NCBI RefSeq assembly: GCF_000701685.1 | Contig: NZ_JNJO01000004.1 | Coordinates: 28,000-91,999 of the forward strand | Direction of reading: 5' to 3' | DNA length: 64,000 nt | DNA from: Gemella sanguinis ATCC 700632 | Lineage (GTDB): Bacteria > Bacillota > Bacilli > Staphylococcales > Gemellaceae | In this document: piece after piece, positions 3,405 through 35,271 of the stretch | How the letters are laid out: every line of letters begins with the position of its first letter | Numbering within the stretch: the first letter of the stretch is position 1 | Translations under genes and position numbers: made by a program | Notes under the pieces: model-generated | What the model was told of the DNA's origin: nothing | Seen by the model: the letters and a program-made list of their open reading frames with translations, nothing else | Database searches by the model: none

Positions 3405-4135
3405 TGAAAATAGATATTTTAACATTATTTCCAGATATGTTTACATCACTTAATCATTCGATATTAGGAAAAGCTAGAGATAAGAATATACTTGATATAA
3501 ATATTGTTGACTATAGAAAATTTTCAGGTAATAAGCATAATCAAGTTGATGATTATCCATTTGGTGGCGGACAAGGGATGGTTTTAAAACCTGAACCAAT
3601 ATTTAATGCTGTAGAAAGTTTAAATAAAACAGATAAAACTCGTATAATTTTACTCTGTCCTCAAGGTGAAAGATTTAATCAGAAGAAAGCTGAAGAACTA
3701 TCAAAAGAAGATCATTTAATTTTTATTTGTGGGCATTACGAAGGGTATGATGAGAGAATTAGAGAGTACTTGGTTACTGATGAATTATCTATTGGTGACT
3801 TTATACTAACTGGTGGCGAGTTTGCTGCAATGACGATGGTCGATAGTATAGCTCGATTAATACCAGATGTTTTAGGGAAAGAAGAATCACATAAAGATGA
3901 TTCTTTCTCAACAGGATTATTGGAATATCCACAATATACAAGGCCAAAAGATTATAAGGGAATGCTAGTACCAGATGTTTTAACATCGGGTCATCATAAA
4001 AATATAGAAAAATATCGTATGAAAGAAAGTTTAAGAAGAACCTATATTAGAAGACCAGATATGTTAGAAAACTATGATTTAAGCAAAGAAGAAGCAAAAA
4101 TTTTAGATGAAATAAAAAAAGAGTTAAGAAATTAA
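3404..4135 (+). CDS. trmD: tRNA (guanine-37-N1)-methyltransferase
   Basis: A 243-residue SPOUT methyltransferase that makes m1G37 in tRNAs with G36, preventing +1 frameshifting. The N-terminal LTLFPDMF, the SAM-binding trefoil-knot segments [10 protein letters not shown] (about residue 110) and [11 protein letters not shown], and the C-terminal helical domain are all present and intact. It overlaps rimM by one base and lacks its own SD, which is consistent with translational coupling. Downstream there is no hairpin, but a separate promoter drives the next gene. Full length, no oddities. Confidence 0.97.
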
Positions 4136-23457: not shown

Positions 23458-23997
23458 TTAACTCCATAAATTTTTTTTATTTGCTTTCGCTGAGTTTTGC
23501 GCTCTTTGATATTCAGCTAAATATCTTGTATCAGGTTCTTTTACATATTTAATTTCAGCTAAGCCTTGTTCTAAAAGTTGTTTTTGAACCGATTTACCAT
23601 CCGCATAAACATAACAGAGAGCACGATGGTATTTATCCTCTTTTTCATATATATCAAATTCAATTTCAACATTCTTAGCTTTTGAAAGTATTTCGCCATT
23701 TAAATTACTAGCTTCTGGACCATATTTTTGTACTTCTACACCTTTTTTAACTGTTTCAGGAGTATCTATAAGTAAATATCTTACTTTTAAATCCTTTTTA
23801 TTAAAACGAACAACTATTGTATCTCCATCAACTTTTTCAACAAAATTCACTTTATATCTTGTAGTATCACCTTTAATGGAAACATTATTAATTGTTACAG
23901 TTTTATATTTAGTATTAATATTATTAGAAATAATAAATAATAGAATAAAGATACTAGTAAAAAACCCTAAAAATATATAAAATATCTTTTTATTCAT
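23458..23997 (-). CDS. nuc: Membrane-anchored staphylococcal-type nuclease
   Basis: A 179-residue thermonuclease homologue. The N-terminus has one hydrophobic segment (about residues 5-24) that may be a signal anchor. The catalytic set of SNase is intact with a constant offset of 38: Asp59 (DGDT), Arg73 and Asp78 (RYLLIDTPE), Glu81 and Arg125 (DKYHRALC). The C-terminal NLWS matches the family end. It is predicted to be a Ca-dependent extracellular or surface-held nuclease degrading DNA and RNA. Convergent with the APC transporter gene. AAGGGGG precedes the ATG on the - strand. Confidence 0.93.
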   Translation of the reverse strand: MNKKIFYIFLGFFTSIFILLFIISNNINTKYKTVTINNVSIKGDTTRYKVNFVEKVDGDTIVVRFNKKDLKVRYLLIDTPETVKKGVEVQKYGPEASNLNGEILSKAKNVEIEFDIYEKEDKYHRALCYVYADGKSVQKQLLEQGLAEIKYVKEPDTRYLAEYQRAQNSAKANKKNLWS

Positions 23998-24081
23998 AAT
24001 TATTCCCCCTTAACTTATATTTTATCATTTTAAGAGTAAAAAATCATTTTAATTAAGTAGATTTAACAACTTTATTTGATG

Positions 24082-24110
24082 TTGGAATAAATCCATAAAT
24101 ATGTTATTAT
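24082..24110 (+). promoter_or_regulatory. Promoter of the tsaE operon
   Basis: TTGGAA (24082-24087), a 17-bp spacer and TATTAT (24105-24110) with TGT extended -10. Confidence 0.55.
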
Positions 24111-24149
24111 AGATTATGGTAATAAATTATAGATTTAGAAGGATGTAAA

Positions 24150-24608
24150 ATGTTAAATATTGTAATTAGAAATTTAGAAGATACAAAACGTTTAGCAGAG
24201 ATTGTTGCTAATAGTATAGATGATAAACTTATTTTAATGTTGAATGGTGATTTAGCCGCTGGGAAGACGACATTTACTAAATATTTAGCAGAATATCTAG
24301 GTGTAAAAGCAGTTGTTAATTCACCGACTTTTAATATTATGAAAGAATATAAATTTCCAAAAGGCAGATTGTACCATATTGATGCATATAGATTAGAAAA
24401 TAGTGATGAAGACTTAGGCTTTGAAGATATTTTCTATGAAAATAATATATGTGTAGTGGAATGGGGAGAATTTATTGAAGAATACTTACCAGCGGAGCGT
24501 TTAGTTTTTAATATACGAATTAAAAATGATGTTCGAGAAGTGGAAATAATCTCAAGTGGTATTTACAGTAAAATAGAAGAAAGGATAAAAGCAGAGTGGT
24601 CAGTTTAG
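24150..24608 (+). CDS. tsaE: t6A synthesis ATPase TsaE
   Basis: A 152-residue P-loop ATPase with Walker A GDLAAGKTT (residues 33-41), followed by the family segments SPTFNIMKEY and HIDAYRL. TsaE works with TsaB and TsaD to place threonylcarbamoyl on A37 of ANN-decoding tRNAs. TsaC/YwlC is not in the window. AGAAGGA precedes the ATG. First gene of the operon; it overlaps tsaB by 13 bases. Confidence 0.96.
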   Translation: MLNIVIRNLEDTKRLAEIVANSIDDKLILMLNGDLAAGKTTFTKYLAEYLGVKAVVNSPTFNIMKEYKFPKGRLYHIDAYRLENSDEDLGFEDIFYENNICVVEWGEFIEEYLPAERLVFNIRIKNDVREVEIISSGIYSKIEERIKAEWSV

Positions 24609-31265: not shown

Positions 31266-31910
31266 ATGAAAATAACTAAAGAGGATTTTGTTATTTTTAT
31301 TAAACAAAATATTAAAACTATATTTTTAGCATTAATTTGTAGTTTATTTATTGTTGGAGGAGTATATTACTTTTTCTTTTCTGGATCTAAAACAGAAGAT
31401 TATAGTGACGCTAATTTTTCTGCACAAAATTATCAAATCAATTCTGATAAAGATAAAAATGATAAGAAAGAATCTGGTGAAAAAGTTATTGTTGATGTAA
31501 AAGGAGCAGTTAAAAATCCTGGAGTTTACGAATCCACAAAAGATAAGAGAGTAAAAGATATAATTGAAGAAGCAGGCGGATTATTAGAGGATGCAGATAC
31601 TTCCAATATAAATTTAAGTGAAAAGCTTAAAGACCAAATGGTAGTTTATGTATTAAAAAATGGGGAGAAGCCTAAACAGATTATGAATTCATCAAGTTCT
31701 TCAAATGGATCTAATAGTGAGGTAATAAATATAAATACAGCTACTAAAGAACAACTTATGAAAATATCTGGTATTGGAAAAACAAAAGCTGAAGCAATTA
31801 TAGAATATAGAGAAAAAAATGGGGATTTTAAAAGTAAAGAAGATATAACAAAAGTTAAAGGAATAGGAAAGTCAACTTTTGAAAAAATAAAGGATAAGAT
31901 AGAGGTTTAA
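31266..31910 (+). CDS. comEA: Competence DNA receptor ComEA
   Basis: A 214-residue protein with one N-terminal membrane anchor (about residues 17-37), a charged linker, an SLBB-type domain beginning VDVKGAVKNPGVY (about 78), a Ser/Asn-rich spacer and a C-terminal helix-hairpin-helix domain (INTATKEQLMKISGIGKTKA). ComEA binds incoming DNA outside the membrane and passes it to ComEC. AAGGGGG precedes the ATG. First gene of comEA-comEB-comEC-holA, which suggests the organism has at least part of a natural-transformation system. Confidence 0.95.
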   Translation: MKITKEDFVIFIKQNIKTIFLALICSLFIVGGVYYFFFSGSKTEDYSDANFSAQNYQINSDKDKNDKKESGEKVIVDVKGAVKNPGVYESTKDKRVKDIIEEAGGLLEDADTSNINLSEKLKDQMVVYVLKNGEKPKQIMNSSSSSNGSNSEVININTATKEQLMKISGIGKTKAEAIIEYREKNGDFKSKEDITKVKGIGKSTFEKIKDKIEV

Positions 31911-31914
31911 TTGT

Positions 31915-32379
31915 ATGCAAAGAATTAGTTGGGATGAATACTTTATGGCACAAAGTCATTTACTATCGCTTAGATCAACGTGTAGTAGATTGTCTGTAGG
32001 TGCAACTATAGTTAAAGATAAGAGAATAATAGCGGGAGGCTATAATGGTTCAATTAAAGGCGATGAACATTGTATAGATGTTGGTTGCAAAGTTATAGAG
32101 GGACATTGTGTAAGAACGATTCATGCAGAAATTAATGCAATACTTCAATGTTCAAAATTTGGTGTTTGCACAGAAGGTGCAACTATTTATGTTACACATT
32201 TTCCATGTTTAAATTGTACCAAATCAATAATACAAGCTGGCATAAAGGAAATATGCTATGCTAATGATTACAGAAATAATGAATATGCTCAGGAGTTATT
32301 AGAAAAATCTGGTGTTGTAGTAAGAAAAGTAGACTACGATGTTAAAGCAGTAGTAGAAAGGTTATTAGATAATAATTAA
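31915..32379 (+). CDS. comEB: ComEB, dCMP deaminase family protein
   Basis: A 154-residue cytidine/deoxycytidylate deaminase. The zinc-binding residues are in HAEINAILQ and PCLNCTKSI. The early CSRLSVGATIVKDKRIIAGGYNG segment matches dCMP deaminases. It probably makes dUMP from dCMP; its competence role is unclear in other Bacilli. It starts 4 bases after comEA and ends 1 base before comEC. Confidence 0.95.
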   Translation: MQRISWDEYFMAQSHLLSLRSTCSRLSVGATIVKDKRIIAGGYNGSIKGDEHCIDVGCKVIEGHCVRTIHAEINAILQCSKFGVCTEGATIYVTHFPCLNCTKSIIQAGIKEICYANDYRNNEYAQELLEKSGVVVRKVDYDVKAVVERLLDNN

Positions 32380-32380
32380 A

Positions 32381-34291
32381 ATGTATTATTTACAATATTC
32401 ATTACTAGCATTGGGAGCGATATTATTAAATTTTAATTTGATAGTGTCGATGCTATGTATAATTATTTTTCTACTAATAACTTGGAAAAATAAAAATTTA
32501 AATGCTAGGAAAACTATTATTTGTATAATAGTATTCTTAGTATTTTTTATTAGGGGAGCATATATACAAAAAAATAATACTACTAAACTTATGAATGTGG
32601 AGAATAAGGATGTAGTATTGAGGATTAACGACAGGGTAGATATAAATGGTAATTATTTGAGGGGAGTAGGCTATATTAATAATGAAAAAGTATTAATTAG
32701 CTATACTTTACAAAATGAAGATGAAAAAGTCTTTTTTAAAAAGAAATTTTATGGCGGGAAAGTCTTTGCTAATGTTAACATAGAAGAATTAAAAGAAAAG
32801 ACTAATTTTTATTCTTTTGATTATAAGAAATATAACGAAAACAGGGGAGTTTTTAAACAGGTTAAGTTGAATCAGATAAAAAATATAAAAAGTGAAGATT
32901 CTATAGTTGGTAAAATTAAAAGTATACGTGCAAAAATGAGCTTAAAAATTAGTAATGAGATTACTTTCGATAAAAGTGGTTATTTTGAAGCATTAATATT
33001 GGGAGATAAAAACTATTTGCAAAGAGAAGACATTAATTCATTTAAAAACTTAGGAATAAGTCATCTTTTAGCGATATCAGGCCTGCATCTAGGACTGTTA
33101 ATATCAATAATTTATTATATATTACAGAAATTAAACTTTAGCAGTAATTTAATAGAAAATATTATTATAATAATACTACCTTGTTATATGGTGATAAGTG
33201 GGTTTAGTCCATCGGTTGTTAGGGCAGGATTAATGATAATAGTATATCTAATTTTAAGAAGGAAAAATATAGCGAATATAGATAGTTTACTCATCACATT
33301 TTTAATAATGACAATCATTAATCCACTGTATATTTTTGATATAGGATTTGAATTATCTTTCTTTATTACTTTTAGTTTATTGATGTCGGCAGAATATATA
33401 AAAAAATCTAAAAATAAATTACAAAGTAGTTTAATGATAAGTGTAATTTCTTTTTTAGCAAGTATGCCGATTTTAATAAGTAATTTTTATACTGTGCCTT
33501 ATATCTCAGTACTAAGTAATATAATATTAGTTCCTATATTTAGTATTATAATATTTCCATTGGTTGTTTGTAGCTATATAGTATTTTTATTAAGTACAAC
33601 TATATTTAGTATTCTTTGCAAACCATTATTAAATATAGTATTCTATATTTTCGATGAGATACAAAGTATATTACTTAGAGTACAGCCTATAAGAATAGGG
33701 AAGCAAAATATTTACGTAATTATTGCTATTTACTTAATTATACTTTTTATTTTAATATGTCTTAATAAGAATAAATATAAAGTTTCATTATGTTGCCTTG
33801 CTACTATAGTTAGTTTCTTAGCTGTAAATAATACATTTAATTCTTCAAAAGATCTTTTCGAAAAGTTGGAGGTAGGGAAATCTCAAGTTTACTATTTGAA
33901 AGAAAATGGTGTGACTACATTAATTAATACTTCAAATAATTTAGAGAATTTTTATTCTGATTTTAGAAAAAAAGATAGAGTATATGATATAATAAACGAA
34001 TATGATTCATTATTAAATTATGAAGGAAGAAACAAAATAGATTATTTGATCTTAACATCTACAAAAAAGGGTGAAATTGGATTTGCCGAAACACTAATTG
34101 GTAAAGGAATAATTAAAAAGGTAGTTATTTTAGATATACATAAAGAAAAATTCAATGATTTAATTAATTTAGCAAAATTTAAGAATATAGATGTATTAGT
34201 ATTAAAAGAAAATAATGAGTTGATAAAGTCTATTTATTATTATAATAAAATAATAAAAATAAAAGATATTGAGATAGAGGTAGTTGATTGA
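32381..34291 (+). CDS. comEC: Competence membrane channel ComEC, C-terminus degenerate
   Basis: A 636-residue polytopic protein. An N-terminal hydrophobic and OB-like region is followed by the ComEC/Rec2 core with HLLAISGLHLGLL (about 228) and many membrane segments to about 470. It forms the DNA uptake channel. The C-terminal part (about 495-636) aligns in position with the metallo-beta-lactamase-like domain of longer ComEC proteins, but the usual HxHxDH motif is missing and the entry motif VGQGD is VGKSQ. It is much shorter than B. subtilis ComEC (about 776). No clear SD; translation is likely coupled to comEB. Confidence 0.93.
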   Translation: MYYLQYSLLALGAILLNFNLIVSMLCIIIFLLITWKNKNLNARKTIICIIVFLVFFIRGAYIQKNNTTKLMNVENKDVVLRINDRVDINGNYLRGVGYINNEKVLISYTLQNEDEKVFFKKKFYGGKVFANVNIEELKEKTNFYSFDYKKYNENRGVFKQVKLNQIKNIKSEDSIVGKIKSIRAKMSLKISNEITFDKSGYFEALILGDKNYLQREDINSFKNLGISHLLAISGLHLGLLISIIYYILQKLNFSSNLIENIIIIILPCYMVISGFSPSVVRAGLMIIVYLILRRKNIANIDSLLITFLIMTIINPLYIFDIGFELSFFITFSLLMSAEYIKKSKNKLQSSLMISVISFLASMPILISNFYTVPYISVLSNIILVPIFSIIIFPLVVCSYIVFLLSTTIFSILCKPLLNIVFYIFDEIQSILLRVQPIRIGKQNIYVIIAIYLIILFILICLNKNKYKVSLCCLATIVSFLAVNNTFNSSKDLFEKLEVGKSQVYYLKENGVTTLINTSNNLENFYSDFRKKDRVYDIINEYDSLLNYEGRNKIDYLILTSTKKGEIGFAETLIGKGIIKKVVILDIHKEKFNDLINLAKFKNIDVLVLKENNELIKSIYYYNKIIKIKDIEIEVVD

Positions 34292-35271
34292 TGAAAAATA
34301 TCTATATAGTTTATGGAGAAAATTTTGAAGCTATAAATGATTTTGAAAAAAAAGTTGCTCAAAACTATTTAAAAACATTAGATGAATTTAATTATATAAA
34401 GCTTAATATGAATGATACTACAATAGAAAATTTGGTCTATGAATGTCGTAGCAGTGGCCTTTTTGGAAATGAAAAAGTAGTAGTAGCTGAGAATTGTAAT
34501 TTCTTATTAGCGAAACCTAAAAAATTAAAAGTAGATCATAATATTGAAGTATTAAGTAATTACTTAGAAAATATAAGTGGTGAAGTGATACTGATATTAA
34601 AATCTAACGAAAAAATTGATAGTAGAAAGAAAATAGTAAAAAAAATAAAAGAAATAGGGGAAATAAAGGAATTTTCAAATTTTAATGAAACTCAAATAGC
34701 GGATTATATTGTTGAAGCGGTAAAAGAAAAGAATTTGAAAATATCTAAAGAAAATGCACAATTTTTAGTTAATTATACTCGACTAGATTTTGCTAATATT
34801 AAACGAGAAATAGAAAAACTAGTACTATATTGTCAGGGAAAAAGTGTTATAGAAAGAAATGATATAGAGTTATTAGCAGTTAGAAGTTTAGAATATGATG
34901 TTTTTAGTCTAACAAATGAACTATTCTCTAGAAATTATATTAAGTTAAGAGAAGTGTATAATTCACTGGTACTAAAAAAAGAAGAGCCAATTTTTCTTTT
35001 ATCATTAATAAGTGGTCAACTTAGACTTTACTACAAGGTGAAAGTACTTTTAGATGAGCATTATTCTCAAAAACAAATAGCAAAAGAGCTAGGAATACAT
35101 CCATATAGAGTTCAATTGGCTGCACAAGGAATTAGGAATTATAGTATAGAGAAAATTATGAGGTGTCTTATATTGGCAGCAGACTATGATAAATTATTAA
35201 AGTCATCATATATGAATAAATATATTATTTTAGATTTATTTATAAATAAATTAATAGATGAACTGAAATAA
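34291..35271 (+). CDS. holA: DNA polymerase III delta subunit
   Basis: A 326-residue clamp-loader subunit. The N-terminal IYIVYGENFEAI is the degenerate P-loop region of HolA, and the C-terminal RLYYKVKVL and KQIAKELGIHPYRVQ segments are typical. It opens the beta clamp within the clamp loader. ATG 34291 is used (a TTG at 34288 is possible); it overlaps the comEC stop as TGATG, with AGAGG upstream. Last gene of the comE operon, a common arrangement in Bacilli. Confidence 0.94.
   Translation: MKNIYIVYGENFEAINDFEKKVAQNYLKTLDEFNYIKLNMNDTTIENLVYECRSSGLFGNEKVVVAENCNFLLAKPKKLKVDHNIEVLSNYLENISGEVILILKSNEKIDSRKKIVKKIKEIGEIKEFSNFNETQIADYIVEAVKEKNLKISKENAQFLVNYTRLDFANIKREIEKLVLYCQGKSVIERNDIELLAVRSLEYDVFSLTNELFSRNYIKLREVYNSLVLKKEEPIFLLSLISGQLRLYYKVKVLLDEHYSQKQIAKELGIHPYRVQLAAQGIRNYSIEKIMRCLILAADYDKLLKSSYMNKYIILDLFINKLIDELK

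Follow-up and report, generated by a model that had tools for sequence, protein, structure and literature searches.

The question raised by this locus is how the non-imported strand is dealt with during DNA uptake when ComEC, the channel protein, carries a C-terminal metallo-beta-lactamase (MBL) domain without the motifs of its nuclease site. The window, by which is meant the whole stretch of 64,000 nucleotides that was analysed, comes from Gemella, an oral commensal and opportunist, and has the gene order of a comE operon, with comEA, comEB and comEC at 31266-34291 followed by a gene that is presumably holA (Table 1). The Competence domain of its ComEC scores 183.5 bits against a Pfam cut-off of 23, and the match bears out the statement of the initial annotation that the membrane channel core is intact. 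Among named ComECs, the closest matches come from two G. haemolysans strains (59 and 58% identity) and from G. cuniculi (55%). For the TIGR00361 equivalog, which describes the full three-domain protein, ComEC reaches 162 bits and stays below the cut-off of 190.05; the match stops at aa 582, and both the shortfall and this end point are consistent with a missing half-domain. An overlap of 4 nt between comEC and the gene that follows it is present in 11 of the 13 Gemellaceae with a full ComEC (32381-35271 in the window; L001-L016), compared to extrapolated gaps of 260-398 nt in the three order relatives checked.

Table 1. Features of the comE region and the anchored SNase gene, in window coordinates
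Feature	Position	Strand	Description	Evidence
comEA	31266..31910	+		TIGR01259 8e-39 (below cut-off); TIGR00426 above cut-off
comEB	31915..32379	+		TIGR02571 3e-80, above cut-off
comEC	32381..34291	+	636 aa channel protein, C-terminus a degenerate half-MBL	Pfam Competence 6.8e-54
OB fold / DUF4131	32441..32884	+	aa 21-168, retained	PF13567 2.7e-10
Competence channel domain	32993..33766	+	aa 205-462, intact	PF03772 6.8e-54
N-terminal half-MBL remnant	33851..34288	+	aa 491-636, without metal ligands	hhalign, domain model
VGKSQ, at the VGQGD position	33872..33886	+	aa 498-502	alignment with relatives
Block INTSNN..FYxDFRKK..YDI..EY..L..DYL	33917..34054	+	aa 513-558, conserved; contains the positional equivalent of loop 1	
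STKKGE, at the HxDxDH metal motif position	34058..34075	+		alignment
holA-like gene	34288..35271	+	4 nt overlap with comEC stop	
SNase, membrane-anchored	23458..23997	-		PF00565 1.4e-24; NucI model 3e-32, below cut-off

Full ComECs were available from 13 Gemellaceae, namely nine Gemella and four of the six genomes of a sister genus; of the other two sister-genus genomes, one (72% complete) gave only an edge fragment of ComEC and one (66% complete) gave none. The labels Gemella, sister genus and Streptococcus-like are inferred from nearest matches and the kinship of the genomes, and the coordinates listed cover the best part of 395 matching genomes. NCBI taxonomy holds Gemelliphila as a further genus of the Gemellaceae, which is not equated here with the sister genus. 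Outside the family the order sample has 45 genomes, of which 17 were examined for motifs and the other 28 were judged by frame length, two of them (G016 and G053) being read in the class sample as well.

In alignment with relatives, Gemella ComEC has VGKSQ in place of VGQGD, NTSNN in place of DTGG and STKKGE in place of HPDADH. The initial annotation had pointed to the first of these changes and to a missing HxHxDH, both of which hold, and had concluded that the C-terminal domain is without MBL motifs. The true state is more extreme, because the second half of the domain is gone too. The ComEC open frames are 639-655 aa long in all 13 Gemellaceae, compared to 733-770 aa in the 17 aligned order relatives and 732-820 aa in the remaining 28 order genomes, except for the G055 copy that is cut at a contig edge. 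Gemella ComEC is thus about 100 residues shorter, so that the GD motif, HHGS and loop 2 are wholly missing, and they are absent in 13 of 13 full Gemellaceae ComECs.

Seven positions were scored, H598, D600, D602, H603, D700, H725 and S728 in the numbering of the M. glycerini (Moorella) protein, with their roles taken from the description in PMC12455585 and with either D or H at D600 counted as kept. Six of the seven are kept in none of the 13 Gemellaceae ComECs and D602 in one; the window ComEC keeps none of the seven, having S, K, G, E and a gap at H598, D600, D602, H603 and D700. In the 17 order relatives all six metal and active-site residues are kept, with S728 in 16, and the same six are kept in all of the remaining 42 full-length rows of the class sample, with S728 in 41. 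These 42 rows exclude families f24 (2 rows) and f28 (4 rows) and the Streptococcus-like rows (10 rows, losses in 4), which show losses of their own and were therefore counted separately. Since 13 genomes share this design, a sequencing or assembly slip can be ruled out. Judged by these residues, the C-terminal domain of Gemellaceae ComEC cannot be a ComEC-type metal nuclease.

What remains of the domain is recognizable, by profile comparison, as the first half of an MBL. The C-terminal 163 aa of Gemella ComEC gave no match in any Pfam or NCBIfam family. When 13 Gemellaceae C-termini were compared by hhalign to 12 intact ComEC MBL domains, a match was found (probability 95.6, E 1.2e-8) that spans template columns 19-134 of 272, which is the first MBL half only. 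A profile of the intact domains likewise finds ComEC in 6 of the 15 Gemellaceae genomes, weakly and only inside positions 4-149 of 269 (best in G009 at 1.5e-9; 3.2e-4 in the window's genome), compared to 2.4e-63 to 1.6e-98 in five control genomes, two of which had contributed rows to the profile. The initial annotation had proposed comparing a predicted structure of this region to ComEC MBL domains. A model of full-length ComEC from four sequences was too poor to use (pLDDT 48.8). The model of the C-terminal domain alone, also from four sequences, is better (pLDDT 65.7, pTM 0.68), and it partly answers that proposal: its top Foldseek matches are MBL-fold proteins, the best being a phosphorylcholine esterase (6.7e-4), with the ComEC MBL structure 9ic4 at 0.12. 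Aligned to residues 532-701 of 9ic4 it gives a Z of 7.6 and an rmsd of 4.4 over 130 residues. Since VIA Z values of at most 8 can reflect merely a common arrangement, and those found here were at most 8.0, the structural result is secondary to hhalign.

One explanation for such a domain is that competence is decaying in the Gemellaceae and ComEC is becoming a pseudogene. Gemellaceae ComEC has lost residues that all 17 order relatives conserve, as this explanation would predict, and a 2020 survey (PMC7136413) gives for Gemella only RecA, RadA, RnjA and Ssb homologues and infers that competence genes are absent from the genus. However, ComEC is an open frame in 13 of 13 full copies, and substitutions pooled over three close species pairs give a dN/dS of 0.29 for the remnant (48 nonsynonymous changes at 1131 sites, 34 synonymous at 246; p 2.6e-7 against a ratio of 1). 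By part of the protein, the pooled ratio rises from 0.09 in the channel through 0.18 in the block at aa 513-558 and 0.21 in the N-terminal part to 0.36 in the tail. The half-MBL remnant is under purifying selection and is kept rather than decaying. The rest of the machinery speaks against decay as well. A strong match to the ComGA-type ATPase (PF00437) was found in nine of nine Gemella and six of six sister-genus genomes, and CoiA in all nine Gemella. The window's genome has a complete-looking comG operon (L125:3756-7243, G000:C4), in which ComGA, ComGB and ComGC score above their NCBIfam cut-offs and three further pilin-like genes have ComGD, ComGE and ComGF as best matches below cut-off; DprA also passes its cut-off, and its gene immediately follows one of CoiA type. 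A decaying pathway is therefore improbable.

The presence of a comG operon, comEA, comEB, coiA and dprA contradicts the published absence of competence genes in Gemella, and these genes correct the view that the genus is without DNA-uptake machinery. No report of Gemella transformation was found in the literature searched, where Gemella and comEC are named together in a single paper, on Fusobacterium. An inverted repeat and a T-rich stretch, seen by eye, are conserved upstream of comGA in nine Gemella (L091-L101; L125 about 3640-3755); this is probably the terminator of the preceding gene and possibly regulatory.

The constraint on the remnant is not evenly spread. Mean pairwise identity among the 13 Gemellaceae is 0.62 in the block at aa 513-558 compared to 0.56 in the channel, and it is 0.42 in the former VGQGD strand and 0.35 in the former metal-motif region. 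In relatives with an active domain the VGQGD strand is instead the best conserved segment (0.64 in the order, 0.79 in the Streptococcus-like rows). By these values the loop-1 block retained its constraint while the catalytic segments lost theirs. The block is also more conserved than the channel in active-domain relatives (0.43 compared to 0.37 in 16 order relatives, 0.55 compared to 0.51 in six Streptococcus-like rows), so the conservation shows retention and not by itself a new role. Work on Legionella ComEC proposed that loops 1 and 2, both conserved, act as strand-separating pins, and reported that a loop 2 double mutant abolished transformation whereas a loop 1 double mutant caused no reduction (PMC12455585). 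Loop 2 is gone in the Gemellaceae, and the positional equivalent of loop 1 falls within the block, most of which has a pLDDT below 50 in the domain model, so no claim is made on its shape. That an inactive domain is perhaps kept as a guide has been suggested for pneumococcus (PMC8579336), and a guide role for the Gemellaceae remnant would be an extension of that suggestion. In its fullest form, the half-MBL would be no relic but a non-catalytic wedge or guide, a pseudoenzyme reduced to its loop-1 face, which would part or steer the duplex where it enters the channel and serve as a docking site for a separate nuclease. This is a tentative reading, marked down because the block is relatively conserved in active-domain relatives also. 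If it is true, import and strand degradation, which are combined in one polypeptide in most Bacilli sampled, would be two interchangeable parts.

If ComEC itself does not cut, the activity may have moved elsewhere. The most direct version is that the nuclease half split off and is now a separate MBL protein. Four Gemella genomes, G001-G004 (L278-L281), do encode a secreted MBL protein (frames of 478-506 aa), with matches of 9.5e-23 to 8.2e-25 to the ComEC MBL profile. However, this protein has choline-binding-like repeats, as judged by eye, and is phosphorylcholine-esterase-like; it was also not found in the window's genome or in the other ten Gemellaceae. The window's genome has four matches to the profile, ComEC itself and three short local ones, and no full-length match elsewhere. 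For this genome the split-off reading is largely refuted, and as an explanation for the family it is very improbable. Since the window's genome has a dead MBL domain and no full-length ComEC-type MBL elsewhere, another enzyme is required for any strand degradation, and it is probable that another surface nuclease does the cutting.

The initial annotation had put forward the anchored SNase encoded in the window as that other nuclease. The need for another enzyme stands, and the SNase does look like an anchored enzyme with its catalytic motifs, since an N-terminal hydrophobic stretch, DGDTI and DTPE are visible both in the window copy and in the four copies inspected from the sister genus. It could in principle degrade the non-imported strand in both genera, being found in eight of nine Gemella and six of six sister-genus genomes. 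Its gene lies upstream of the comE operon, divergent from a gene that we take to be tsaE, in the window (23458-24608) and in the sister-genus genome G010 (L126:15759-16922). However, the choice of this enzyme fares less well: of the 60 genomes searched, 58 have an SNase (PF00565), among them almost all order relatives whose ComEC nuclease is intact, and the enzyme is thus not specific to MBL loss. It is also absent from one Gemella that has the same dead ComEC, G002, whose genome is a single contig. The SNase is therefore an unlikely answer for both genera at once. NucA/NucB (PF14040) was also considered as the nuclease and was rejected, with matches in 0 of 60 genomes.

A better candidate in Gemella is an EndA-type protein encoded outside the window. 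The DNA/RNA non-specific endonuclease family PF13930 was found in nine of nine Gemella, none of six sister-genus genomes and one of the 45 other order genomes (1 of 51 non-Gemella genomes). The copy in the window's genome scores 93.1 bits for PF13930 (cut-off 27) and 25.5 bits for PF01223 (cut-off 23), and additional PF13930 matches, weaker or broken, occur in G005 and G008 apart from the EndA-type gene. The frames are 247-261 aa long, with one N-terminal hydrophobic segment in all nine (hydropathy 2.7-3.1), from which hydropathy the protein is predicted to be membrane-anchored. The D-R-x-H motif reads DRSH in eight copies and DRCH in one, and the copies are 69-80% identical to that of the window's genome, with a pooled dN/dS of 0.09. 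Two of its solved relatives are chains named DNA-entry nuclease (9.2e-12 and 4.3e-9), and the secreted streptodornase D (5fgw, 1.7e-11) matches about as well. The protein is 29-36% identical to seven streptococcal-type DRGH proteins and is nearer to proteins of four other families (52, 48 and 45%), which makes it at most a putative orthologue of pneumococcal EndA. Its gene adjoins what is presumably trpS, on a different contig from comEC. The stretch between these two genes is, by eye, longer and repeat-bearing in L069 and L071 compared to the other seven Gemella. Inspection by eye found no promoter feature common to the EndA-type gene, comGA and comEA. Pneumococcal EndA is constitutive, membrane-bound and recruited by ComEA, according to PMC3764208, so neither the distant location nor the lack of a visible shared promoter is decisive. 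The EndA-type protein is a better candidate than the SNase in Gemella, and by analogy with pneumococcal EndA its role in uptake would follow the pneumococcal pattern.

The sister genus complicates this picture. No EndA-type gene was found in its six genomes, four of which show the same dead ComEC, and MBL loss was thus not simply licensed by gain of EndA, unless the gene was later lost there. A link between EndA and MBL loss was also not found across 80 class genomes, in which any PF13930 match was counted: matches are present in 27 of the 50 genomes whose MBL is intact, compared to 5 of the 30 in which it is dead or absent. The 30 comprise 2 Gemellaceae, 4 Streptococcus-like, 2 f24, 4 f28 and 18 f10/f50 genomes; in the last group absence was judged by frame length because 14 of the 18 loci failed to match the ComEC profile, and one locus (G235) lies near a contig end.

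A further alternative is that no dedicated nuclease is needed, with the second strand displaced as the motor pulls one strand in and then cleared by stray surface nucleases. Almost half of sequenced ComECs are without this domain, and displacement was raised as a possibility in the same account (PMC8579336). The 18 genomes of the families f10 and f50 have ComEC frames of 494-618 aa, which leave little room for an MBL domain, and none has a PF13930 match. However, metal-site mutants of B. subtilis are reported to lose 10-100 fold (PMC8579336), and most catalytic-site mutants in Legionella to abolish transformation (PMC12455585). In addition, each of the 15 Gemellaceae genomes has an EndA-type gene, an SNase or both. 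Simple displacement throughout the family is considered rather unlikely.

The history of the domain was examined using a tree of 93 channel domains. The 13 Gemellaceae form one clade (100/99), which is separate from the Streptococcus-like clade and is placed next to the other members of the order at a weakly supported fork (89/47). This placement makes vertical descent, with loss in the family ancestor, the simplest account. The separation from the Streptococcus-like rows speaks against a dead ComEC having been acquired from streptococci, though the fork with the order is weak (89/47). Elsewhere in the class, MBL ligands are lost in both f24 genomes (L178, L188) and in four of f28 (L220, L221, L225, L226; one keeps H725), as judged from one MAFFT alignment; their ComEC frames are 714-1049 aa long and none has a PF13930 match. 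Four of the 10 Streptococcus-like genomes show partial ligand loss too, and each of these four has an EndA-type match. The initial annotation had noted that its proposal would suffer if the same degeneration occurred in species known to use a nuclease-active ComEC; no such case was seen among these groups. Alignments and frame lengths together indicate that loss of the ComEC MBL is recurrent, as published in PMC6299819.

The reading that best joins these data is that a halved and dead MBL is kept at the channel mouth and the strand is degraded in trans, by the EndA-type enzyme in Gemella and by other means in the sister genus; a probability of about 0.5 is assigned to it. Under this reading, the ComEC nuclease died and was cut to its first half, most simply once, in the common ancestor of Gemella and the sister genus. 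The remnant would be a structural part at the channel mouth that probably uses the loop-1 block to hold or steer the incoming duplex. The anchored EndA-type endonuclease would most likely cut the non-imported strand in Gemella, as in pneumococcus. In the sister genus, which lacks this enzyme, another surface nuclease, for which the SNase is the obvious candidate, or strand displacement would have to take its place.

The closest known parallel is Streptococcus pneumoniae, in which a ComEC MBL with substituted metal ligands works with membrane-bound EndA in trans and transformation works (PMC5031224, PMC8579336, PMC3764208). Gemella is alike in having an altered MBL plus a candidate anchored nuclease in trans, and two of the Streptococcus-like rows (L248, L253) show the pneumococcal substitutions described in PMC8579336. 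However, the four altered Streptococcus-like ComECs are full length (737-748 aa) and some of their changes are conservative, whereas in the Gemellaceae the ligands are gone along with the entire second half of the domain, and the Gemella nuclease is 29-36% identical to the streptococcal-type DRGH proteins. Compared to the active ComECs of Bacillus subtilis and Moorella (9ic4), Gemella has the same OB fold, channel and domain order, and its remnant model aligns to the MBL of 9ic4, but the metal ligands, HHGS and loop 2 are not present. The MBL-less ComECs described as profiles C and DC in PMC6299819 resemble that of Gemella in that Pfam recognizes no MBL, and in that scheme Gemella ComEC would be classed as DUF4131 plus Competence. 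However, Gemella keeps a half-domain that is still under selection, and it is thus not a case of clean MBL loss. Pneumococcus already offers the combination of a dead ComEC nuclease and an enzyme in trans; what is new here is a selected half-domain common to a whole family. PMC8579336 regards it as an open question what happens to the second strand when ComEC has no working nuclease domain. The Gemellaceae offer a natural experiment on it, with a dead, halved and selected domain throughout and an EndA-type gene in one genus and not the other, and they make it possible to test both the non-cutting role of the MBL domain and whether any anchored nuclease will serve.
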